Below, one piece after another: positions 15,197 to 46,348 of a stretch of DNA of 51,875 nt. A program made the position numbers and the translations under genes. The notes below the pieces were generated by a model, which saw nothing but the letters and a program-made list of their open reading frames with translations, was not told the DNA's origin and did not search any database. How positions within the stretch are numbered: position 1 is the first letter of the stretch; the number at the start of each line of letters is the position of its first letter. Origin of the DNA: a virus; the IMG/VR virus record IMGVR_UViG_3300045996_000640, positions 1 to 51,875 of that record. One strand, written 5' to 3'.

Positions 15197-18100
15197 GCGT
15201 ATCGGGCCTCGGCAGCGCATCGGGCGAACTGTTAATCGACATTGCGCAAGCGATGGCGAATCTAACGACGCTCGAGAACCGCGTTAAGGGGCTCGCGGGC
15301 ACGGGTGGCGATACGTTCAAAGGCGCTGAGGCGGGCGGTACCCGCCTCGACGCGCTCGGGACGAAGCTCGACGGGGTAAACCGCAAGTATGGCGAGCTCG
15401 GCAAGGCTGGGCTAGGGGTTGGCGTCGCGACGGCCGCCGCGTTTGGGTTGGCGATCAATTCCGCTGCGAATTTCGAGCAAAGTATGAGCAACGTCGGCGC
15501 GGCGCTGGGCGGCGTGGGCGGCGATGCCGGGCTTACCCAGGAACAATTCAAGGCGCTAAATGATGAGGCGTTGCTCATTGGTGCAACGACGAGCGTTTCG
15601 GCGGGCGAGGCGACGCAAGCAATGGAATTGCTCGCGAAATCCGGGCTCGACGCAACGCAAATCCTCGAGGGCGGCGCGGCTGCCGTTGTCTCGATCAGCG
15701 AGGCGACGGGCGAAAGTATTCAGCAAAGTTCGGAATCGTTCGGCGCGCTAACCAACCTGTTTGCCGATACGGGTATCTCGGCGTCGCAAATGGCCGATGC
15801 GATCGTAGTCGGCATGAACAATTCGAATTCAACGCTGAGCGAATTCCAGACGGGTATAGCGCGCCTTGCGCCCGTGATCGCGCAAACGGGCATGTCGTTC
15901 TATGACAGCGCCGCCTCGATCGCGTATTTCAATTCGCGGGGTTTTAGTGCTGCCGAGGTCGGAACGTCGCTTACGCGGGCATTCACCGATCTTGCCGATC
16001 CGATCGACGGCACAGGCGACGCCATGCGGGCGATGGGCATTGACGCATTCGACGCGCAAGGTAATTTCGTCGGGTTCCCGGCAATCATGGATCAAGTAGC
16101 GGCCGCGACGGCAGGCATGAGCGACGAACAGCGCACGGCCGCGCTGAGCACGATCTTTAGCGCCGACGCGATCGATCTTATGGCCGATGCCAGCAAAACG
16201 GGCGGCGATGATCTGGTCGAGCTTACCGAGAAAACGAAGGAAGAAGGCGTAGCGGCCGAACAGGCAGCCGCGCGCATGGACAATTTCAAAGGGTCGATCG
16301 AGAAATTCAAAGGCGCAATAGCATCGCTCGCAATCGTGATCGGCACGCCATTGCTCGGGCCGCTGCGCGCCGTAACCGATTTCCTGGCGAAACTGGTCGA
16401 GGGGTTTCTCACGCTGCCGAAGCCGATACAAACCGCTATCGCGGCGCTGATCGGGATTACGGGCGCGCTCGCGGGCGTTGCGGGCGCTATCGTGGTATTC
16501 GGGCCGCAAGTGGTCAAGATCGCCGCGCAAATGCAGAAGATGGTTGGCGCGATTACCCGCATCATACCCGCGCTGCTCGGGTTGAGCCTGCCGATCCTGC
16601 TCATTATTGCCGCCCTGGCGCTGCTGGCGATCGCCTACAAAACTAATTTCCTGGGGTTCGCTGACGCGGTGAATTCGGTTGCGTCATCGGTGAAATCGGG
16701 ATTCGAGGGGATCATTGCATTTCTTGGCAAGGTTAAAGCCGCGTTCGATGCGTTTAGTTCGGTCGGGCAAAACCCGGTTGCGGCACTACTGAATGCGATC
16801 GGGCTCGAGCTCGAGGCGATCGCCGGGAAGTTTGGGCCGTTCGAAGGCGCGGTACGAGCGGTGGCCGAGGCGTTGCGCCTGTTCGGCACGATGGCGCAAG
16901 ACGTTGGGCTACGGTTCGCGCAACTGAGCGGCAGCATGAATCCGGTTGCGGCGGCGCTGCAAGCGATCGGCGACGTGCTCAGCAAATACGCCGCGTCGTT
17001 TGGGCCGCTTGCGGGCGTCGTTGGCTTTATCGGCGAGGCATTCCAACTAGCCGGGATCATGGTCAATGATTTCGTGCTGCGGTTCCGGCAACTGAGCGGC
17101 AACCTGAATCCGGTTGCGGCGGCGCTGCAGGCGCTCGGCGACGTGTTGAAAAAGTATTCGAAATCGTTTGGGCCGCTCGCGCGGGTTGTCGGTTCGCTCG
17201 GCAAGGCATTCAAGCTACTGGGGCAAGCGGCGGGCGACGTTGGCGACATTCTACAGGCAGCATTCAAGGGCGATTGGAACGAAGTATTAGAGGAAACCGA
17301 ATCACTTTTACGCCGCCTTACGGGCGGATACCTCGCGCTCATTGCCGCGTTCCTTTCATTTCCGCTGAGCCTGCTTAGCGGCGCGTTCGGGCTGCTATCC
17401 GATGCGTTCGCAAGCCTGGCCGATCGGATTAGCGGGCCGTTTAGCGACGCATTGCAAGGTATTTCGGATGCGTTCGGGAACCTGGGCGAAGCGGCCGGGA
17501 ATTTCGGCGACGCGATTATCGATATATTCAGCGGCGATTTCGGCGACGCGCTCGATAACATTCAGGAAGGTCTAACGAACGTCGGCGAGGCGTTTCTCGA
17601 CCTGGGCGGCGCGGCCGTCAACGCGCTACAGGGCGCATGGGAGGCGCTAAGCGGCGTCGATTGGGGCGGCGCGCTCGACACGATCGGCACGGCGCTATCT
17701 GGCATTGGGTCAACGATTGCCGATGCCGTCGGGAATGCCGCCGAATGGCTCGCGCCGAAAGCGGTCGATGCCGTTACCGGCCTGGTCGATGCGCTGGTCG
17801 AGAATTTCCCGCGCGTGTTGTCATGGGTTGGATCGATCGGGCAATTCATAGGGGTTGCGGTCGCCAATGCCGCCGAATGGCTTGCACCGCGCGCCGTGGA
17901 GGCGATTACGGGGCTTGTCGATGCGTTCGTCGAGAATTTCCCGCGCGTTTTGTCGTGGGTTAGTTCTATCGGTCAATTCATTGGAACGGCGGTTGCGAAT
18001 GCCGCCGAATGGCTCGCGCCGCGAGCGGTCGAGGCCGTTACCGGATTTCTCGACGCCCTGGTAGAGAATTTCCCGCGCGTGCTCGCGTGGATTGGCAGCA

Positions 18101-19671
18101 TAGGGCAATTCATCGGCGCGGCAATCGTCGACGCCGCGCAATGGCTCGCGCCGAAGGCGATCGAAATGGTAACGGGATTCCTCGATGCCCTGGTCGAAAA
18201 TTTCCCGACGGTGCTTGCCTGGATTGGCTCGATTGATCAATTCGTTTCGACGGCGGCCGGGAACCTGATCGACGCGCTGAAACCCAAGGGCGTAGAACTG
18301 ATTCAGGGGATTTTGGACGGGATCAATGAGAAATGGAAAGCGGTTCAGGCATGGCTCGGGTTGATCGGGACTACTGCCGGAAACGCGGTCGGCGAGCTCG
18401 GCGAAACGCTGAAAGCGAAGGGGTTGCAACTACTCGCCGGGTTGTGGGCCGGGGCGATCGAAAAGCTCGATCAAATCCTCGCATGGGCGGCAACGATCCC
18501 GGATAGCATCGCGGCCGCGATTGCGAATATAGGGCAGGCGCTCTACGATGCTGGGCTCGCGGCATTCGAGAATCTATGGGAAGGCTTGAAATCGAAATGG
18601 GAGGAAATCAAGTCATGGGCGAGCGGCCTATCGATCCCGTGGCCTGACATCGATCCAAGATCAAGTGAGGCAAATCCGCGCGGCGGCGATCCCGCTGCTA
18701 CTGAGCGCAATACCCGCGCGACGGTTGTGCCCGCGCTCGATCTAAGTCTCTACCTGGCGTCGCTTTCGGCAATGGAAATAGCGACAACGACGGCGTTTAC
18801 GAATGCCGGTATCGCGGTTGGCGTCGCGGTTTCGTCGATCGTTGCGAACCTCGGGTTAATCGCCGCGCCTGCCGCTGCGGTTGGCGTCGCGCTAAGCACG
18901 CTTGCAACCTCGGCGAATACGTCAATGGTGAACATCGGGATTGCGGTCGGAACGGCGGTTTCTTCCGTTACCGGCAACCTATCCCGCCTGGGCACAGCAT
19001 TCAACACGGCGCAAACGACAATCACGACCGCAATAAATACGGCGCGTAGCAACGTTACGAGCGCCGCTAATACGATGACGCAAACGCTAAATTCATTCGC
19101 GACGGCGGCCGGGCGAGCCGGAACGAACGCCGGAAACGATTTCGAGCGCGGGCTCACGTCGGGCGTACGCGGTGCGGTGCGCGAGGCGCAAACCGGTCGA
19201 GGCCAAATGATCGCCGCGCTCACATTGCCGAGCATGTATGCGAGCGGCGCGAGCGTCGGCAATAGCCTGGGCGAAGGATTGGCGGCCGGTATTCGAAATC
19301 AAATCGACGCCGTTGCGGCTGAGGCGGCGAACCTGGTAACGGCGGCGCTCAATGCGGCACGCAATGCGGCGGCGAGTAATTCACCGTCGCGTAAAACGAT
19401 GGCGCAAGGCCGGGACCTGGCGCGCGGCATGGAAATCGGAATCGAGCGCGGCACGCCTGCCGTTGTACAGGCGTTCGGACAAATTATCCCGTTCGCCGAT
19501 TCCGGGGCGGCGCGGCAATTCGGCAACATGCCGAGCTCAGGATCCGCGCCGGTATCACATGTTACGGTGATCGCGTTGAAATCCGAGGAATGGCTCGAAA
19601 TGGTCAAGGCCGCCGAAACCGGCCGCGATTTCGCGAATGAATTTCCGTACACGTTGGGAGGTCGCCGTTAA
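15193..19671 (+). CDS. Tape measure protein
   Basis: 1,492 residues, the longest gene, directly after the chaperones (ATGA overlap). The N-terminal part (~90-330) matches phage tape-measure TP901-type regions (FEQSMSNVGAALGG, STSVSAGEATQAMELLAKSG, SFGALTNLFADTG). Hydrophobic segments at ~410-490 could insert in the host membrane. There are then two internal repeat arrays. The C-terminal SPSRKTMAQGRDLARGMEIGI is a usual tape-measure tail motif. By the common rule of about 0.15 nm per residue, the tail would be near 220 nm. Sets tail length and takes part in DNA entry. I see no clear peptidase or lysozyme insert. Confidence 0.93.
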   Translation: MSVSGLGSASGELLIDIAQAMANLTTLENRVKGLAGTGGDTFKGAEAGGTRLDALGTKLDGVNRKYGELGKAGLGVGVATAAAFGLAINSAANFEQSMSNVGAALGGVGGDAGLTQEQFKALNDEALLIGATTSVSAGEATQAMELLAKSGLDATQILEGGAAAVVSISEATGESIQQSSESFGALTNLFADTGISASQMADAIVVGMNNSNSTLSEFQTGIARLAPVIAQTGMSFYDSAASIAYFNSRGFSAAEVGTSLTRAFTDLADPIDGTGDAMRAMGIDAFDAQGNFVGFPAIMDQVAAATAGMSDEQRTAALSTIFSADAIDLMADASKTGGDDLVELTEKTKEEGVAAEQAAARMDNFKGSIEKFKGAIASLAIVIGTPLLGPLRAVTDFLAKLVEGFLTLPKPIQTAIAALIGITGALAGVAGAIVVFGPQVVKIAAQMQKMVGAITRIIPALLGLSLPILLIIAALALLAIAYKTNFLGFADAVNSVASSVKSGFEGIIAFLGKVKAAFDAFSSVGQNPVAALLNAIGLELEAIAGKFGPFEGAVRAVAEALRLFGTMAQDVGLRFAQLSGSMNPVAAALQAIGDVLSKYAASFGPLAGVVGFIGEAFQLAGIMVNDFVLRFRQLSGNLNPVAAALQALGDVLKKYSKSFGPLARVVGSLGKAFKLLGQAAGDVGDILQAAFKGDWNEVLEETESLLRRLTGGYLALIAAFLSFPLSLLSGAFGLLSDAFASLADRISGPFSDALQGISDAFGNLGEAAGNFGDAIIDIFSGDFGDALDNIQEGLTNVGEAFLDLGGAAVNALQGAWEALSGVDWGGALDTIGTALSGIGSTIADAVGNAAEWLAPKAVDAVTGLVDALVENFPRVLSWVGSIGQFIGVAVANAAEWLAPRAVEAITGLVDAFVENFPRVLSWVSSIGQFIGTAVANAAEWLAPRAVEAVTGFLDALVENFPRVLAWIGSIGQFIGAAIVDAAQWLAPKAIEMVTGFLDALVENFPTVLAWIGSIDQFVSTAAGNLIDALKPKGVELIQGILDGINEKWKAVQAWLGLIGTTAGNAVGELGETLKAKGLQLLAGLWAGAIEKLDQILAWAATIPDSIAAAIANIGQALYDAGLAAFENLWEGLKSKWEEIKSWASGLSIPWPDIDPRSSEANPRGGDPAATERNTRATVVPALDLSLYLASLSAMEIATTTAFTNAGIAVGVAVSSIVANLGLIAAPAAAVGVALSTLATSANTSMVNIGIAVGTAVSSVTGNLSRLGTAFNTAQTTITTAINTARSNVTSAANTMTQTLNSFATAAGRAGTNAGNDFERGLTSGVRGAVREAQTGRGQMIAALTLPSMYASGASVGNSLGEGLAAGIRNQIDAVAAEAANLVTAALNAARNAAASNSPSRKTMAQGRDLARGMEIGIERGTPAVVQAFGQIIPFADSGAARQFGNMPSSGSAPVSHVTVIALKSEEWLEMVKAAETGRDFANEFPYTLGGRR
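17734..18261 (+). repeat. 132-bp tandem repeats in the tape measure gene
   Basis: AATGCCGCCGAATGG recurs at 17734, 17866 and 17998, exactly 132 bases apart, with a diverged fourth unit near 18130. Each unit codes 44 residues of the form NAAEWLAPxAVxAVTGxxDA followed by LVENFPRVLSWxGSIGQFIG. An earlier, looser repeat (NPVAAALQA..GDVL..Y..SFGPLA) lies near 16770-17220. Confidence 0.88.
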
Positions 19672-31184: not shown

Positions 31185-31321
31185 GCGATCACACGATCGA
31201 GCTTGTCGCCTCGGCGCTACTGATCGGTACGGCGGCAAATGCGATCGGATACGGCGTCGCGCTGGCGCATGGCATAGCAACCGATATCCTTGCCTGGTGG
31301 AAACGAAAGGGTTCAGAATGA
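31181..31321 (+). CDS. 46-residue membrane microprotein
   Basis: Begins on ATGA overlapping the previous stop and ends on TGA overlapping the next start (ATGA). Product MSDHTIELVASALLIGTAAN continuing with one hydrophobic helix and ending AWWKRKGSE. The last codons also encode the ribosome-binding block GAAAGGGTTCAG of the ParB-like gene, so coding sequence and translation signal are superimposed. Confidence 0.72.
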   Translation: MSDHTIELVASALLIGTAANAIGYGVALAHGIATDILAWWKRKGSE

Positions 31322-32151
31322 GCGAAACCGTAGTGCAACAAAAGACGTTCGCCGATCTGATCGGCAAGCTCGATCTAATCGACGCCGAGATACGGATAGA
31401 TGAAATCCGCACGCCGCCGCTCGGGCCGGAACCGGATAAAACATTCGTACAGGGCGTTTGCGAAATCGGGATTCTTTCGCCGATTCTGGTCGAGGCCGTG
31501 CCGACGAAACAGGGCGGCGGGTATACGATGATCGACGGGTACCGCCGCTTGCGCGCCGCCCAGGAATGCGAGCTAACGACGATCCCGGCACGGATCGCGC
31601 AGCCGGGCGCGTACACGGTATCGCTGCTCACGCTGATTGCGAATGAGCAACGATCGGCGAATCCGGTTGTCGAGTATTACGCGCTGCTCGGGCTCATGGA
31701 AAACAAAGGGCTCAGCGAAACCGATATCGCGCGCCTATCGGGCATGAGCGTGCCGACGATCCGCAAGCGGTTACGCCTGGGCGATCTAATCCCGGAATTT
31801 ATGGCGGTATTCGAGCTCGGCGAGATTGGCGCGCCGATGGCTGAGCGGTTGGCGAAACTCGACGCCGACGATCAGCGGAAATGCCTGGCGATCTGGAATG
31901 AGCATGCCGGGCGATTGACGGGCGAGGATATCCGCCGCGTACGTGAGGCCGATCGCCGCGAGGCTACGCCTGAGCTCCCAGGCATGCCGGAACCCGAAGC
32001 GAGCACGTACGAATGTTCCGCCGACAACCTGATACGGGCGGTGCAATTGCTGCGGGCGAACCTGGCAACGGGCGAGCTCGATATGGTCGAGGTCGATCAA
32101 CGGCTCGAGAAAATCGAAGCGTTGGCGTTCGCGCTGGCAGGCGGTGAGTAA
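31318..32151 (+). CDS. ParB-like nuclease-domain protein
   Basis: 277 residues from the ATG at 31318 after GAAAGGGTTCAGA. The N-terminal ParB/Srx-type domain has a GILSPILVEAVP strand-turn and DGYRRLRAAQE (box with GxRR-like residues). It is followed by a helix-turn-helix (LSETDIARLSGMSVPTIRKRL, about 130-150) and a helical C terminus. Phage ParB-like proteins are thought to act in DNA binding, replication or transcription of the genome. No ParA is present here, so a partition role is unlikely. Confidence 0.82.
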   Translation: MSETVVQQKTFADLIGKLDLIDAEIRIDEIRTPPLGPEPDKTFVQGVCEIGILSPILVEAVPTKQGGGYTMIDGYRRLRAAQECELTTIPARIAQPGAYTVSLLTLIANEQRSANPVVEYYALLGLMENKGLSETDIARLSGMSVPTIRKRLRLGDLIPEFMAVFELGEIGAPMAERLAKLDADDQRKCLAIWNEHAGRLTGEDIRRVREADRREATPELPGMPEPEASTYECSADNLIRAVQLLRANLATGELDMVEVDQRLEKIEALAFALAGGE

Positions 32152-33997: not shown

Positions 33998-34633
33998 ATG
34001 GAAAGCGAAACGGCGTTCGATCCTCGGCGGCACCTAATCAAGCTCAGCGGCAAGGATTACTTAGAAGTCAAATGGCGCGTGTACTGGTTGCGTACGGCGC
34101 ATCCTGGCGCGATTATTTCGACCGAGCTACACAAACACGTATTCGCCTCGCCGGATGGCACGATACCCGCTGAGGCGATATTCCGGGCGCACGTCATCAT
34201 TCCCGACGGCGGCGAGGCGACGGGTTGGGGTTCGGAATCCGAGGCCGATTTTCACGACTACATTGAAAAGGCCGAAACGAAGGCGTTAGGTCGCGCGCTT
34301 GCCGCGCTTGGGTTCGGCGTGCAATTCGCGGGCGATGATTTCGAAGGCGTCGAGCGATACAACGATGCGCCGGTACAGGCGGCGCGCGCCCGGCAGATCA
34401 AAGAACTGGACGGCGGAAAGAAATCAGGCGGCAAGGCAACCGCAAAACAATTCGCCGATATGAAAGCCTGGCGCGAGGCGCAAAACCTCACGCCCGAGCA
34501 AATGGCAACGATCGTGCTCAATATCACGGGCAAGCATGAGCATTCGGAAATGACCGAGCAAGACGCCGGGCGCGTGTTGTACAAGCTCAACCGGGTAAAC
34601 CTGGACGATCTGCTCGCCGGGAACATCGACTAA
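33998..34633 (+). CDS. Rad52/ERF-like single-strand annealing protein
   Basis: 211 residues. The core HLIKLSGKDYLEVKWRVYWL, STELHKHVF, AIFRAHVIIPDGG and FHDYIEKAETKALGRALAAL followed by GFGVQFA is the pattern of phage ERF/Rad52-like annealing proteins. A flexible Gly/Lys linker (~135-150) leads to a small helical C-terminal domain (FADMKAWREAQNLTPEQMATI). It should anneal complementary single strands during phage recombination and replication. Coupled to the replication gene that follows a terminator. Confidence 0.75.
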   Translation: MESETAFDPRRHLIKLSGKDYLEVKWRVYWLRTAHPGAIISTELHKHVFASPDGTIPAEAIFRAHVIIPDGGEATGWGSESEADFHDYIEKAETKALGRALAALGFGVQFAGDDFEGVERYNDAPVQAARARQIKELDGGKKSGGKATAKQFADMKAWREAQNLTPEQMATIVLNITGKHEHSEMTEQDAGRVLYKLNRVNLDDLLAGNID

Positions 34634-34638
34634 CAACA

Positions 34639-34672
34639 CGAAACCCGGCCGATTTGGTTCGGCCGGGTTTCG
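34639..34672 (+). terminator. Hairpin terminator
   Basis: CGAAACCCGGCCG (34639-34651) and CGGCCGGGTTTCG (34660-34672) with an 8-base loop. Same arms as at 6344 and 7146. Ends the P5 transcript. A GGGTTCAG block follows at 34682 but is 35 bases from the next start, so it may be a relic. Confidence 0.72.
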
Positions 34673-34723
34673 CTACGATCCGGGTTCAGTGGACGCGATA
34701 CGATCATACCATAGGGACAACGA

Positions 34724-35611
34724 ATGAGCCTGCATTTGTTTTCGCGGATCTATCGCGAAACGAGCTACACGGGCGCAACGCAAACCGTGCTCGCGATCCT
34801 CGGCGGGTATGCCGACGAATACAACTACTGCTCAATGAGCGAGGCGCGGGTTATGTGGGAATCCGGGCTATCTGAGCGCAGCGTACGCAACGCGATACGC
34901 GAGCTCGAGCGCGACGGCGTGATCGAAACGACGCGGAATTACGGGCGCGGCCGGTCGAGCGTTTACCGGGTTCGCATCGAAAACGCGCCGCCTAAAGAGG
35001 ATTGGAAATCATTCCTCACTCGGCAAATTGGCGAGGATGGCGCGGCTCGATATTTCGCCGCCGTCGATCGGAATAAGGCCGGGAAATACCGGCAGAATTT
35101 GCCGGTCGAGGAAGAAGAAATACCGGCAGATTTTTCCGAATACCGGCAATCTACGACAAAAAATACCGGCAAAATTCGACCGGAAACAGAAAGGACACCT
35201 ATTAAAGAGATTAAGAAAGTAGATCAATCTATTGCGGCTGACGCCGCGAAAAAGAAAGGTTCGAAAGCTCATGCGAAAACGGTCGAGGAATTGCCACAAA
35301 ACGGCGCGGCGCAAACGCTGGTATATACCTGGTGCCAGCGAACGGGAACGGTGCCGGTTTCGTACCCGGTCGCGGTTGGACATGCAAAGAACCTCGCGGC
35401 GGCGGGCGTGAATCCGGGCGAGCTCGGCGAGCTTTACGACTACCTGGCGGCCGATCCGTTTTGGACGGGAAAGGGTTTCGACCTCGGCACGGCGGTTTCG
35501 CAGTTAGAAAAATTCCGGCAGACAAAACGAAAGGCGGCGCGATCGAGCACGAACAGGGTTGAATCGGCGCATGAATTTTTCGCCCGAAAAGAATCAGGCG
35601 GGCTACGTTAG
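34724..35611 (+). CDS. Winged-helix replication initiator-like protein
   Basis: 295 residues. N-terminal winged helix (about 40-85: MSEARVMWESGLSERSVRNA, then IRELERDGVIETTRNYGRGRSSVYRV) as in phage replication proteins of the lambda O/DnaD-adjacent type. A low-complexity acidic then basic linker (~110-185) is encoded by DNA carrying four ATACCGGCA iterons and an AT-rich stretch. The C-terminal helical domain (~190-285, AAQTLVYTWCQRTG... LGTAVSQLEKFRQTKRK) may recruit a helicase loader. The lambda O gene has the same layout of origin inside the initiator gene. Function inferred from domain and origin structure. Confidence 0.75.
   Translation: MSLHLFSRIYRETSYTGATQTVLAILGGYADEYNYCSMSEARVMWESGLSERSVRNAIRELERDGVIETTRNYGRGRSSVYRVRIENAPPKEDWKSFLTRQIGEDGAARYFAAVDRNKAGKYRQNLPVEEEEIPADFSEYRQSTTKNTGKIRPETERTPIKEIKKVDQSIAADAAKKKGSKAHAKTVEELPQNGAAQTLVYTWCQRTGTVPVSYPVAVGHAKNLAAAGVNPGELGELYDYLAADPFWTGKGFDLGTAVSQLEKFRQTKRKAARSSTNRVESAHEFFARKESGGLR
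35084..35225. other. Candidate replication origin: four iterons plus AT-rich region
   Basis: ATACCGGCA occurs at 35086, 35120, 35140 and 35163, each preceded by A-rich bases and followed by G/A then AT. The first copy pairs with an inverted half-site (ACCGGCA at 35088-35094, TGCCGGT at 35100-35106). The four copies are read in all three codon phases (Tyr-Arg-Gln, Ile-Pro-Ala, Tyr-Arg-Gln, Asn-Thr-Gly-Lys), so the DNA, not the protein, is conserved. An unusually AT-rich stretch (35185-35235) follows. Layout mirrors lambda ori. Confidence 0.72.
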
Positions 35612-35620
35612 GGGTTCAGG

Positions 35621-36340
35621 ATGGCAAGGCAACCAAAGGCAAAAAAGCAAACCTACGGAATCGACGCGGCCGCGATCGGCATTGCGAAATTCGCGCGCGA
35701 TCCTGGACTCAGCCTCACGGGCGAGCTCGAGCGGGTACATATCAGCGGCGGCCGGGCGTACGCGGCTGATGGGTTTCGGATCGTATCGGCGGAATTGCCC
35801 GCGACCGATCCGAGCGACTTAACCGAGGATTCAGCGGTGAGTTATCCGGCCGCCGATATCGCCGCGCTCGATTGGGAGGATTTCACGCAACGGCCGTATT
35901 CACTGGTGAATACGAAAGACGTTCGGCTCGGCGATGTCTTTCGATCGGGCGATCTGGTGCGCCTGGCGCATGGCAAGCCGCCCGATTCCAAAAAACCCGC
36001 GCCGTGTACTGAGGCGGGTATGCGGGCGGTTGCCGAGTCGCAAGGTATCGCCGGGATCGAACCCGCAACGACCGTGCTTAGCATCGAACTGCTCGGCGGC
36101 ATCCTCGACGCCTTGCGCGAGGTTGGCAATAGGTTGGGCGGTGCGAGTATCGACGGCGGGATCGTGCTGCGGATCTACCCGGATCGCGAAACCGTCGATC
36201 CGTACGCCGCGCCGCGCGTGGTCGAATGGCTGCACAAACTACCCGACGGCCGCACGATCGAGGGCATGCTGATGCCGATGGTATTGCCGTTTGATCGGGC
36301 AATCGTGCCGCATTGGCGCAAGGATTCCGAGAATGAGTAA
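35621..36340 (+). CDS. Possible sliding-clamp-like protein
   Basis: 239 residues, start after GGGGTTCAGG. The pattern LERVHISGGRAYAADGFRIVSAEL, then YPAADIAALDW, resembles phage proteins with a DNA-clamp fold (a conserved ADG-F/H-R strand turn). Remaining segments alternate strands and helices (TVLSIELLGGILDALREVGN, IVLRIYPDRE). If right, it would hold a polymerase or nuclease on DNA. It is next to the replication initiator. Evidence is pattern-level only. Confidence 0.5.
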   Translation: MARQPKAKKQTYGIDAAAIGIAKFARDPGLSLTGELERVHISGGRAYAADGFRIVSAELPATDPSDLTEDSAVSYPAADIAALDWEDFTQRPYSLVNTKDVRLGDVFRSGDLVRLAHGKPPDSKKPAPCTEAGMRAVAESQGIAGIEPATTVLSIELLGGILDALREVGNRLGGASIDGGIVLRIYPDRETVDPYAAPRVVEWLHKLPDGRTIEGMLMPMVLPFDRAIVPHWRKDSENE

Positions 36341-42233: not shown

Positions 42234-43055
42234 ATGCCGCAGTACGCACGCCCGAGCGCCGATATCACGTTAGGCGGCTGGTCGAATCAGGCGGGCGCAA
42301 CCGCGAGCCTGTTCGCCTCGATCGACGAAGTTACCGCCGACGATGCCGATTTCGTGCAATCGAGCCTAACCGCAAACGACGCCTATGAATGCCGGTTGTC
42401 GACCGTTGCGGCGGCGCTCATTCGGCGCGGGCATATCGTGCGCTATCGCGGTCGGAAAAACGCGGCAGCGGGCAACACGCGCGGCGTAACGGTCGAGCTC
42501 AGGCAGGGCGCGACGGTGATCGCGAGCAACACGCATGCCGATCTAACCGCGCTCATGCTCGACGGCGCGATTGTGCTCACGCCGGGACAAGCGGCGGCGA
42601 TCACCGATTACACGAACCTACGCATTCGATTCGCGGCAACCGGCACGGTATCGGGCTCGGGATCGGTTCGCCGCCGCGTGGTCATTACCTGGGCGCAAGT
42701 GCGGGTACCCGATGCGACGTTCGGCGCGATCGAGGATACGAGCACGCCGGGCGTTTGGCGCTACACGCTCAACGGGTTTACCGGCACGGGCGCAACCCGC
42801 GAGGATGCACTAGTCGATCTGTTCACACAGATACGCGACTCGAATCCGGCCGATCCGGTCAACGATCGCCGCTGGACATACGTGTACTACGCGCGCAAGA
42901 TCCGCGACTATACGGCGATTCGCGCGGCGATCGTCGCCGGAACCTACACGGATTCGCAGCACCTAACGCAAGCCGAAAAGCTCGCGATCGTCGACGCAAA
43001 GCTCGCCGGATTCGATTCGATCACGGCGGCGGCGGATAGTGAGGATGGCGGGTAA
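42234..43055 (+). CDS. Tail-fibre / virion-associated protein
   Basis: 273 residues. Beta-rich: ITLGGWSNQAGATASLFASI, DADFVQSS, GVTVELRQGATVIASN, RRRVVITWAQVRVP. The C-terminal half is helical (REDALVDLFTQIRDSNPADPVN). The first half has the pattern of receptor-region proteins found beside phage fibres. Ribosome site GAGGTGAGG. Ends one base inside the big fibre gene. Confidence 0.65.
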   Translation: MPQYARPSADITLGGWSNQAGATASLFASIDEVTADDADFVQSSLTANDAYECRLSTVAAALIRRGHIVRYRGRKNAAAGNTRGVTVELRQGATVIASNTHADLTALMLDGAIVLTPGQAAAITDYTNLRIRFAATGTVSGSGSVRRRVVITWAQVRVPDATFGAIEDTSTPGVWRYTLNGFTGTGATREDALVDLFTQIRDSNPADPVNDRRWTYVYYARKIRDYTAIRAAIVAGTYTDSQHLTQAEKLAIVDAKLAGFDSITAAADSEDGG

Positions 43056-46000
43056 TGGCACCTGTAACGGTTCTTGCCAATTCCCGAAATAGCTACTACT
43101 CAGCCGGGAATATCGGCTGGTCGGCTACCTCGGCGTTCGCCTATCGGACGCATCTACAGCAATTGATCGGAACGGCGGCAACGTCTTTCGGGAACACCGT
43201 CGCTACCGAACGGTTCGCGCAGTCATTTACACCAACAGCGAATGTTTCCCTTACCGAATTTATGGTCGCGATCTTCAAAGCAGGAACGCCGACCGACAAC
43301 CTATCACTCGCCGTTTACGCAGAGACAACGGATGCGCCCGGCACATTGATCGCAACGGCGGCCAATGTGTATACCGGGGCGAATATCTCTACGTCTGCAT
43401 CATGGTTAGAGTTTGGATTCTCAACTCCCGTCGCGCTTACCTCCGGCACAAAATATTGGTTTGCGCTCTACCGAAGCGGCGCGGTTGACGGCACGAATTA
43501 CTACCGAATAATGCGCACGACGACTAGCGCGTATGCCGGTCATGGGTCGACGTATTACGACACCGGGGCATGGTCGGGGTTCGTCGATCCCGACGTAGAC
43601 GTTGCTTTTCAGCTCAAGGTCGTTACCCCTTCCGCGCTCTATCAGCTTGCGCAGGATACCGGGGTATCACCGAAGCTGCGCATGTTCAAGTCAACAAACG
43701 ATGGGGTTAGCTGGTCGGAAGTCGATAGCGCAAATGCGCCGAGCGTCAACGCCGGAACTGCGCCGTTCGATGGATGCGATACCCGTTCTGGTCCGTATAT
43801 CGGGGCCGCCTATTTCATCGACGCCGACTCTATTCGCATGCGCGCATTCAACATGTCATCCGACACATGGGGCGGCGATCTACAGTCGGCAGACGCTACA
43901 GGCGCGGTAACGGCAAGTCAAGAACGGTCGATTCGGGTTGCGATTGACAATAGATTTGTAACCGCCTCGCACGGATCGCAGTACATCCAATTTACGAGCC
44001 TTGCCGACGACGCGGACCTCGGATTCACAACGCGGTCGACTATAGCCTGGACCGCAAACGCAACAGCGGTATTCTCCGGGAACACGACTGAGGCATCGCT
44101 AAACTCAGCGGTTGTCGTTGACAAAGCACCGCACGGGTATGTGCATCGCTTCTACTACGATCCCGTGGGCGACGACTACACGATGATTTCGGTTAATTTC
44201 GGCACGACCGGAATAGCCACTGACATAGAGGCAGCCGCAACCTCGACCGAAACAGGTCACATTTCCGCTTGCTATCAGATTTACCAAAACGGCTCCGGGG
44301 TCGATACCATCGTCGCCGCGTACATGGATAACCTTTCGGTAAAGGAGCGCATCCTCACGCTCGAAGCGACGAGCGCAAGCGTGGCGATGGCGGCGGAGGC
44401 GGAAACAAATATCAATACTGGCGCGGCTGGAAGGCAGGTATCGACTTGCTCCTTCAACGGGACGCGCTACGTCGCCGCGAATGTCTCCGGCGCGGTTTTC
44501 CAGTATTCCACAAGCACCGTCGCCGGGACATGGAGTAGCGCGAGTAACTTCAAAACCGGACTTACGAGCGCAACGCTAAGCAATGTCCTGAGCATCGAAG
44601 GCTACGGGCTGCTTGTTTCCTATACCGACAACGGCGATACAAAAGTCGATTGGATCGTCGCGCCGAGCGGCGGATCGACGCCGGTAAACGATACCGACAC
44701 GATCGCGCCCACGCTCAGCGAGGCCGATACCCTTGCCGCCGCGATCCCGGATACCGAAACAATCGCGCCGACGCTTACCGAGGTCGAGGCGGTTTCGAAG
44801 GTCACGAGCGATACGGAAACGATCGCGCCGACACTGAGCGAGGCCGATACCGTCGCGGTCGCGCTCAGCGACACGGATACGATCGCGCCCACGCTTACCG
44901 AAGCCGAAGCAATCTCGATCACAAAAGACGATACCGACACAATCGCGCCCACGTTGAGCGAGGCGGAAACCCTCACGGCCGCGATCCCGGAAACGGAAAC
45001 AATCGCGCCGACGCTCAGCGAGGTCGAGGCGGTTTCGAAGCTCACGAACGATGCCGACACGATCGCGCCAACAATCGCCGAGGCCGAAAGCCTGGCGGCA
45101 ACCGCGAGCGATGCCGAGTCGATCACGCCGACGCTGAGCGAGGCCGATACCGTCGCGCGAACCGGCAGCGATACCGATACCCTTGCGCCGACGCTTACCG
45201 AAGTCGATACGGTCGCAATAACGGCCGTAGACGTTGACACGATCGCGCCCACGCTCGCCGAGGTCGATAGCGCGACTATTACCCTATCGGATACCGAAAC
45301 CGTCGCGCCTGGGCTATCTGAGGCCGATAGCGTCGCCGCCGTGCTCAGCGATACGGAAACGATCGCGCCCACGCTGAGCGAATCGGAATCCTATTCCGAG
45401 GGCGTAACGCCGAAAGACGACACGGAAACAATCTCGCCCACGCTCGCCGAGGTCGATACCGTAACGGTTGCCGTAACGGATAGCGACACAATTTCGCCGA
45501 CGCTAACCGAAGTCGAGAACACCGCCCAGGCGCACAACGACGCCGATACGATCAGCCCGACGCTCACCGAGGCCGAAACCCTAACCGCTGCAATCAGTGA
45601 GGCGGAAACGATCGCGCCGATCCTGGGCGAAGGCGACGCGCTCACGGCGGCGCTCAGCGAAACCGACACGATCGCGCCGGTTCTATCCGAGCTCGAAATC
45701 GTCGGGCAATCGAAATCCGATACCGACACGATCGCGCCGACGCTGAGCGAGGTCGAATCGTACGACGATGGCGTAACGCTGGTAAACGATTCCGACACGA
45801 TCGCGCCGACACTGAGCGAGGCGGAAACCCTCACGGCAACGGCGGCCGAAACGGAAACGATCGCGCCGACGCTCACCGAATCAGAATCGGTACTGAAAGA
45901 AATCCCGAAAAACGATACCGACACGATCGCGCCGACACTGAGCGAAACCGAATTGCTCGCCGCCGCGATTGCCGATGCCGACACAATCGCCGCGATCATT

Positions 46001-46348
46001 ACTGAGCTCGAGGCGGCGGCTGCCATACTGAGCGATGGCGACGCGCTCTTAGTCGTGCTCAGCGAAACCGATAGCGCGGCCGTATTCCTTTCGGATATCG
46101 AAACGCTAACCGCGATCCTGGCGATCGACGAAAGCAAAACGAGCTATACGTATGGATTCGATCCGGCGCGCGTCATTCGCGCCGGGCGCGGGTATGCGAT
46201 CGTATACGCGGGCCGCCCAGGAACGCCGCGACTTGCAGGCGGGCCGGATTCGATCCTGGCAATCGAGGCGGGCCGCGAGCTCGACAATATCGACGGCGGC
46301 CGATCAGGCGGGCCGCAAACAGCCGAAGGGGGCCGCAATGTCTTTTAG
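43055..46348 (+). CDS. Long tail fibre with 24-unit acidic repeat
   Basis: 1,097 residues. Residues ~45-190 resemble a jelly-roll surface domain (FAQSFTPTANVSLTEFMVAI, LIATAANVYTGANI, LTSGTKYWFALYRSG). Residues ~200-530 look like a beta-propeller with at least one Asp-box (KSTNDGVSWSEV, about 212-222). Residues 546-1030 are 24 units of about 20 residues, consensus DTDTIAPTLSEAETLTAAIS, very acidic and Thr-rich, likely an extended stalk. The last ~65 residues (GFDPARVIRAGRGYAIVYAGRPGTP) form a compact end. Base usage differs: 43081-44640 has few GATC sites and different codons, while the repeat has the phage's own. Probable host-binding fibre. Which end binds the virion is unknown. Confidence 0.8.
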   Translation: MAPVTVLANSRNSYYSAGNIGWSATSAFAYRTHLQQLIGTAATSFGNTVATERFAQSFTPTANVSLTEFMVAIFKAGTPTDNLSLAVYAETTDAPGTLIATAANVYTGANISTSASWLEFGFSTPVALTSGTKYWFALYRSGAVDGTNYYRIMRTTTSAYAGHGSTYYDTGAWSGFVDPDVDVAFQLKVVTPSALYQLAQDTGVSPKLRMFKSTNDGVSWSEVDSANAPSVNAGTAPFDGCDTRSGPYIGAAYFIDADSIRMRAFNMSSDTWGGDLQSADATGAVTASQERSIRVAIDNRFVTASHGSQYIQFTSLADDADLGFTTRSTIAWTANATAVFSGNTTEASLNSAVVVDKAPHGYVHRFYYDPVGDDYTMISVNFGTTGIATDIEAAATSTETGHISACYQIYQNGSGVDTIVAAYMDNLSVKERILTLEATSASVAMAAEAETNINTGAAGRQVSTCSFNGTRYVAANVSGAVFQYSTSTVAGTWSSASNFKTGLTSATLSNVLSIEGYGLLVSYTDNGDTKVDWIVAPSGGSTPVNDTDTIAPTLSEADTLAAAIPDTETIAPTLTEVEAVSKVTSDTETIAPTLSEADTVAVALSDTDTIAPTLTEAEAISITKDDTDTIAPTLSEAETLTAAIPETETIAPTLSEVEAVSKLTNDADTIAPTIAEAESLAATASDAESITPTLSEADTVARTGSDTDTLAPTLTEVDTVAITAVDVDTIAPTLAEVDSATITLSDTETVAPGLSEADSVAAVLSDTETIAPTLSESESYSEGVTPKDDTETISPTLAEVDTVTVAVTDSDTISPTLTEVENTAQAHNDADTISPTLTEAETLTAAISEAETIAPILGEGDALTAALSETDTIAPVLSELEIVGQSKSDTDTIAPTLSEVESYDDGVTLVNDSDTIAPTLSEAETLTATAAETETIAPTLTESESVLKEIPKNDTDTIAPTLSETELLAAAIADADTIAAIITELEAAAAILSDGDALLVVLSETDSAAVFLSDIETLTAILAIDESKTSYTYGFDPARVIRAGRGYAIVYAGRPGTPRLAGGPDSILAIEAGRELDNIDGGRSGGPQTAEGGRNVF
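44690..46140 (+). repeat. 60-base degenerate tandem repeat in the fibre gene
   Basis: About 24 units coding [DE]-x-[DE]-T-I-A-P-T-L-[ST]-E-x-[ED] plus 6-9 variable residues. Most are 20 residues; units 12, 18 and 20 are 22-23. DNA identity is limited mainly to GATACCGACACGATCGCGCC-like blocks, so the array is old or under protein-level selection. Confidence 0.92.

Follow-up and report, generated by a model that had tools for sequence, protein, structure and literature searches.

A probable lambda-like replication origin inside the initiator gene of a phage without close relatives

An iteron cluster inside the initiator gene

The virus record IMGVR_UViG_3300045996_000640, which was analysed over its whole length of 51,875 bp and is called the window in the following, very probably carries a replication origin of the oriλ type inside the gene of its own replication initiator, as judged from the sequence. 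The first-pass annotation had proposed a lambda-style origin at this place, and this reading is supported by the family of the initiator, by a winged-helix domain followed by a linker, by a repeat cluster unique in the record, by an adjoining AT maximum, and by the layout of lambda O. Origins of this kind are already known from lambda and from SPP1 oriL. The present analysis adds the orphan member itself, a class of TACCGGCA iterons that recurs in two or more phyla, and a measure of the generality of the arrangement. A likely replication origin is thereby placed in a phage without close relatives or a known host.

The 10-mer AATACCGGCA is present in exactly four copies in the whole 51,875-bp record, all of them inside 87 bp (35085-35171) and in three codon phases of the gene at 34724-35611, and is the sole 10-mer of the record with at least four copies inside 120 bp. 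The four exact copies of the 9-mer ATACCGGCA described in the first-pass annotation are all present (iterons 1 to 4 in Table 1). The genome-wide repeat search proposed there as a check confines the 10-mer to the cluster and finds two further copies of the 9-mer, both isolated and on the minus strand (6756 and 18804). The inverted partner attributed to the first copy is also found, at a distance of 5 nt, and together they read TACCGGCA-GAATT-TGCCGGT (35087-35106). The iterons start 34, 20, and 23 bp apart, about 360 bp into the gene, and span residues 121-150, which is the beginning of the predicted disordered linker. They are read in the codon phases 0, 1, 0, and 2 (YRQ, IPA, YRQ, and NTG), so that the translation in three phases noted earlier is correct, with two copies sharing one phase. 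When the codons of the initiator gene were shuffled synonymously 2,000 times, no 8-, 9-, or 10-mer ever reached four copies inside 120 bp.

The AT-rich stretch that had been pointed out beside the repeats turned out to be the AT and duplex-instability maximum of the entire record. For segments of 50, 100, 150, and 200 bp the record-wide AT maxima start at 35184, 35130, 35084, and 35093, respectively, and the melting profile places the least stable duplex in the 50 bp from 35183 (-1.146 vs a mean of -1.567, sd 0.091). The 70 bp after the last iteron are 63% AT. The cumulative GC skew of the record, another proposed check, has no inflection at 35 kb and gives no origin signal; it is uninformative and neither supports nor weakens the origin.

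Table 1. Coordinates of the initiator gene, its predicted domains, and the elements of the putative origin in the window.
Feature	Position	Strand	Remarks
Initiator gene, O-like, 295 aa	34724..35611	+	phrog_391 (E 2.6e-11); several further initiator PHROGs
Winged-helix DNA-binding domain, residues 1-85	34724..34978	+	AlphaFold2, mostly pLDDT 80-95 in residues 11-70
Linker, predicted disordered, residues 121-185, encodes the iterons	35084..35278	+	pLDDT about 33-44, without secondary structure
Iteron 1, ATACCGGCA	35086..35094	+	read as YRQ
Inverted half-site, TTGCCGGT	35099..35106	-	5 nt from iteron 1; same pair in relatives
Iteron 2, ATACCGGCA	35120..35128	+	read as IPA
Iteron 3, ATACCGGCA	35140..35148	+	read as YRQ
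Iteron 4, ATACCGGCA	35163..35171	+	read as NTGK
A-rich tract of high AT content, presumed DNA unwinding element	35172..35235	+	29 A and 13 T of 64; AT/instability maximum
C-terminal helical region, residues 194-295	35303..35608	+	helices in low-confidence model

The initiator protein and its neighbourhood

The match of the initiator to phrog_391 ('replication initiation O-like') extends over residues 1-187 and profile positions 1-200 of 298, and thus comprises the N-terminal domain and the linker; the alignment stops at profile position 200, and the C-terminal part of the profile is unmatched. Pfam HTH_36 (PF13730) scores 22 bits, which is suggestive and below the gathering cut-off of 25, and is found in relatives with scores up to E 1.2e-12. 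The Rep_3 family of the iteron-plasmid RepA/Rep_3 initiators is absent among the Pfam matches up to E 1. The AlphaFold2 model agrees with the earlier description of a winged-helix protein with repeats in its linker: it contains a winged helix, a further helix at residues 91-118, and a disordered linker that holds the iterons. Residues 50-63 (SERSVRNAIRELER) are the predicted recognition helix, and R52 and R55 are invariant in an alignment of 17 initiators. A Foldseek search with the model matches winged helices of the MarR type. The C-terminal region is presumed to recruit a helicase or a helicase loader.

Close relatives of the initiator were found neither in IMG/VR nor among the GenBank phages, where no match up to E 10 covers more than 34% of the protein, and the relatives of the terminase of the record (46 loci) are distant. 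The downstream gene (35621-36340) has no Pfam, PHROG, or NCBIfam match, and a helicase loader was not recognised there. Between the gene at 33998-34633 and the initiator gene there is a perfect, terminator-like hairpin with 14-bp arms (34638-34673). A ParB-like gene at 31297-32151 (ParB_N above the Pfam cut-off, PHROG partition protein with E 9e-19) hints at plasmid-like maintenance or at a ParB-type nuclease. Elsewhere in the window there are two DNA methyltransferase genes side by side that each match phrog_67 (20-2520), 132-nt tandem repeats in the tape-measure gene (17733-18243), and an ORF of 1,097 aa without PHROG or Pfam match (43055-46348) that contains repeats of 60/120/240 nt at 44687-45216.

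The same iteron in other phages

The first-pass annotation had taken the repeat to be new, which does not hold, as TACCGGCA iterons are present in the linkers of divergent initiators from Actinobacteria, Alphaproteobacteria, and unassigned phages. Searching IMG/VR for ATACCGGCA in three copies gave 13 matches, none of them an initiator; the relatives sharing the iteron were found by relaxing ATACCGGCA to TACCGGCA and considering the codon phase. Three copies of TACCGGCA are present in 90 stretches of IMG/VR. Of 83 clusters, 64 are single-phase, in-frame protein repeats and 19 are multi-phase; genes that encode an initiator winged helix, as recognised by a profile built without any TACCGGCA member, hold none of the former and six of the latter. 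Multi-phase TACCGGCA ORFs lacking the winged helix (L007, L008, L103, L121, and L128 among others) were regarded as repeats of another kind and left out. A pattern that asked for the inverted pair and one further copy retrieved 12 viral and 10 genome stretches, and many of these, including ones from Nitratireductor, Pseudaminobacter, Rothia, and Kocuria, are located in linkers of winged-helix initiators. The initial collection of ORFs with multi-phase or paired TACCGGCA comprised 28, and 16 of these match phrog_391.

As in the window, the TACCGGCA iteron is present in the initiator linkers of prophages of Nitratireductor, Pseudaminobacter, Kocuria, and Rothia (L151, L153, L157, L152, and L154-L156) and in those of winged-helix initiators on viral contigs (L072, L102, L130/L158, and L141-L145); in most cases the inverted partner lies 5 nt away. 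The winged helices of these initiators are 19-33% identical to that of the window, while their C-termini, copy numbers, and hosts differ. In some relatives of the class the AT-rich tract is modest. In the literature that is open without subscription we found no paper that ties TACCGGCA to iterons, and the class may already be described elsewhere.

Several further arrangements were observed in the course of the scans. A Micrococcaceae contig encodes a stand-alone winged-helix gene of 95 aa with TACCGGCA iterons just past the stop codon (L149:6190-6543), and gene 90 of Microbacterium phage ValentiniPuff (L239) stands alone, too, with one TACCGGCA beyond the gene. One initiator linker (L143:2222-3598) contains three near-perfect palindromic iterons (ACCGGCANNACGTGCCGGT) that are about 31 bp apart. 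L103, L113, L131, and L133 contain arrays in which TACCGGCANNAGATGCCG(G) recurs every 22 bp, outside any recognised initiator; the contigs of two of these arrays are about 120 kb long.

Because the phage of the window has no close relatives, the comparison of DNA and protein conservation was made across the TACCGGCA class. A set of 14 divergent initiators contains 49 forward iterons, of which 12, 20, and 17 fall in the three codon phases, respectively. The inverted pair is read in two phases, as YRQNLPV or LPAESAG. The pair is present at 5 nt in 13 of the 14 initiators, in one of these with a base change, but eight of the 13 initiators other than the window were found only by the pattern that demanded the pair; in the five found without this demand it is present in three, has a base change in one, and is absent in one (L066). 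The class therefore supports the earlier claim that selection acts on the DNA of the repeats. For the alignment of homologues proposed as a check, no close homologues were found. The three-phase reading does not set the window apart, since it is shared by lambda and by most of the relatives.

Generality of the layout

A protein-first search with a winged-helix alignment yielded 222 relatives, of which 80 were kept; after removal of duplicates and of genes shorter than 200 aa, the sample consisted of 51 genes, the window included. An 8-mer that is present at least three times and read in two or more phases is found in 43 of the 51 linkers and in none of the 51 C-terminal controls, a contrast that is slightly flattered because the controls are shorter (270 vs up to 360 nt). 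The codon shuffles are unaffected by this difference, and 37 of the 51 linkers beat them at p < 0.01. By this comparison (43/51 linkers vs 0/51 controls), most winged-helix initiators of a broad sample follow the arrangement of lambda, as far as it can be recognised in sequences, so that it is the rule among them.

The iteron types in the sample vary by clade (TACCGGCA, CCAACCGG, TCACCGGA, ACGGGGTGC, and others). They cluster on the winged-helix tree, needing 16 changes compared to a shuffled mean of 41.4, although near-copies add to this clustering and the placements are unsure owing to a short alignment with several long branches. On this tree TACCGGCA needs eight changes, three of which are forced by well-supported branches, and is therefore either old or has repeatedly been re-invented. 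The frequency of the TACCGGCA class is not given by this sample, because it was drawn with an alignment of the class and its five TACCGGCA genes were motif-known (L158, L173, L185, L210, and L226 correspond to the records L130, L102, L144, L141, and L142, respectively). It added no TACCGGCA initiator beyond the motif scans and thus does not independently confirm the class.

Two control 8-mers were scanned. The reversed 8-mer ACGGCCAT gave four multi-phase clusters, none in initiators, and the shuffled 8-mer TAGCCGCA gave seven, six of which are in a different set of winged-helix initiators. In the initiators matched by TAGCCGCA the repeats are GTAGCCGCA or CTAGCCGCA, and their spacing is mostly 22-24 bp. 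In L270, L274, L281, L290, L307, L321, and L322 the TAGCCGCA type was seen as a second iteron type in winged-helix initiator linkers, with TGCGGC partners that are partly inverted. Since the shuffled motif also found initiators, TACCGGCA is one of many iteron types, and the idea of a privileged TACCGGCA iteron was dropped. The control adds weight to the rule that phage genes in which a repeat occurs three times, scrambled over the codon phases, often encode an initiator with the repeat in its linker.

Interpretation of the cluster

The winged-helix protein could instead be a regulator that represses its own transcription or that of its neighbours, with the repeats as operators and the origin located elsewhere. 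Winged-helix folds are commonest in repressors, the best PDB matches of the model are MarR regulators, and iteron initiators often autoregulate, too. However, the sites are far inside the gene and not at a promoter, the matched families are initiators, the AT maximum of the record adjoins the repeats, and in lambda, which shares the layout, the origin is proven (PMC7466680). We therefore regard operators as unlikely. Even less probable is that the repeats are incompatibility or partition (parS-like) sites: a ParB-like protein is encoded in the record, but its gene is 3 kb away from the repeats, and the iterons of the relatives change with the clade of the initiator and not with a ParB. That the DNA repeat is due to chance or to a repeated linker peptide is hardly credible, because, although low-complexity linkers can repeat and most TACCGGCA clusters in IMG/VR are single-phase (64/83), the copies in the window encode three different peptides in three phases, and four copies never arise in codon shuffles.

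For the intragenic origin, we infer the following sequence of events. The N-terminal winged-helix domain of the initiator would bind the TACCGGCA half-sites, probably as dimers, with the full inverted pair being occupied at iteron 1 and one strong half-site each at iterons 2-4. The bound units would wrap or bend the DNA and may melt the adjacent AT-rich tract (35172-35235), after which the C-terminal part could recruit the host replicative helicase, either directly or through a loader. Points that weigh against this reading are that no close homologue of the gene was found, that a helicase loader was not recognised beside it, and that some relatives with TACCGGCA iterons have a modest AT-rich tract.

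We further propose, tentatively and with less than even confidence, that TACCGGCA-N5-TGCCGGTA is a shared or repeatedly re-invented iteron of initiators that are only 19-33% identical to that of the window and occur in phages of at least two bacterial phyla, and that phase-scrambled linker repeats are a general signature that reveals, for many uncultured phages, where the origin lies and which DNA the initiator recognises. If this is true, unrelated phages with one iteron type could disturb each other's replication. Phase-scrambled linker repeats offer a simple route from sequence to phage origins and to the DNA specificity of their initiators.

Comparison with lambda O and other known systems

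The annotated lambda O gene with oriλ (NC_001416) served as positive control, and the claim of a lambda O layout agrees with its anatomy in residues, phases, spacing, and the AT-rich tract. The four annotated iterons of lambda are encoded by residues 117-145 of O (121-150 in the window), start 20, 24, and 23 bp apart (34, 20, and 23 bp), and are read in the phases 0, 2, 2, and 1, which are three phases as in the window. The 70 bp after the lambda iterons are 67% AT and A-rich on the coding strand, compared to 63% AT and an A-rich tract in the window, and in both cases the iterons are in mid-gene, between the DNA-binding and the C-terminal parts of the initiator. However, the lambda iteron ATCCCTCAAAACGAGGGA is unrelated to that of the window, and lambda has the neighbouring loader gene P, whereas a P-like neighbour was not recognised in the window. 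Both initiators match phrog_391, but by largely different parts of the profile (133-288 for lambda O). Comparing the two proteins directly, BLASTP gives E 0.18 in the C-terminus, which is not significant, and a profile comparison finds nothing. Direct homology to lambda O was thus not found, and therefore the window initiator is described as probably working like lambda O and is not filed as its orthologue. As a working analogy, the correspondence to lambda is strong.

The location of the lambda origin inside the initiator gene is proven, with the same layout (PMC7466680). Bacillus phage SPP1 has its oriL in gene 38 (PMC6316719); it also has a second origin (oriR) and its own loader and helicase, and its likeness to the window is one of description. 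In mycobacteriophages an origin inside the initiator gene has been suspected (PMC7157519). The winged-helix initiator gp40 of Arthrobacter phage KellEzio has three multi-phase linker repeats of CCCCGTCA, a different iteron, and its winged helix is 28% identical to that of the window. The winged-helix initiators of Stenotrophomonas phage CUB19 and Pseudomonas phage Itty13 also have multi-phase linker repeats, six copies of CCCCGCA and three copies of CCCCGCAG, respectively, and in both the iteron differs from that of the window.
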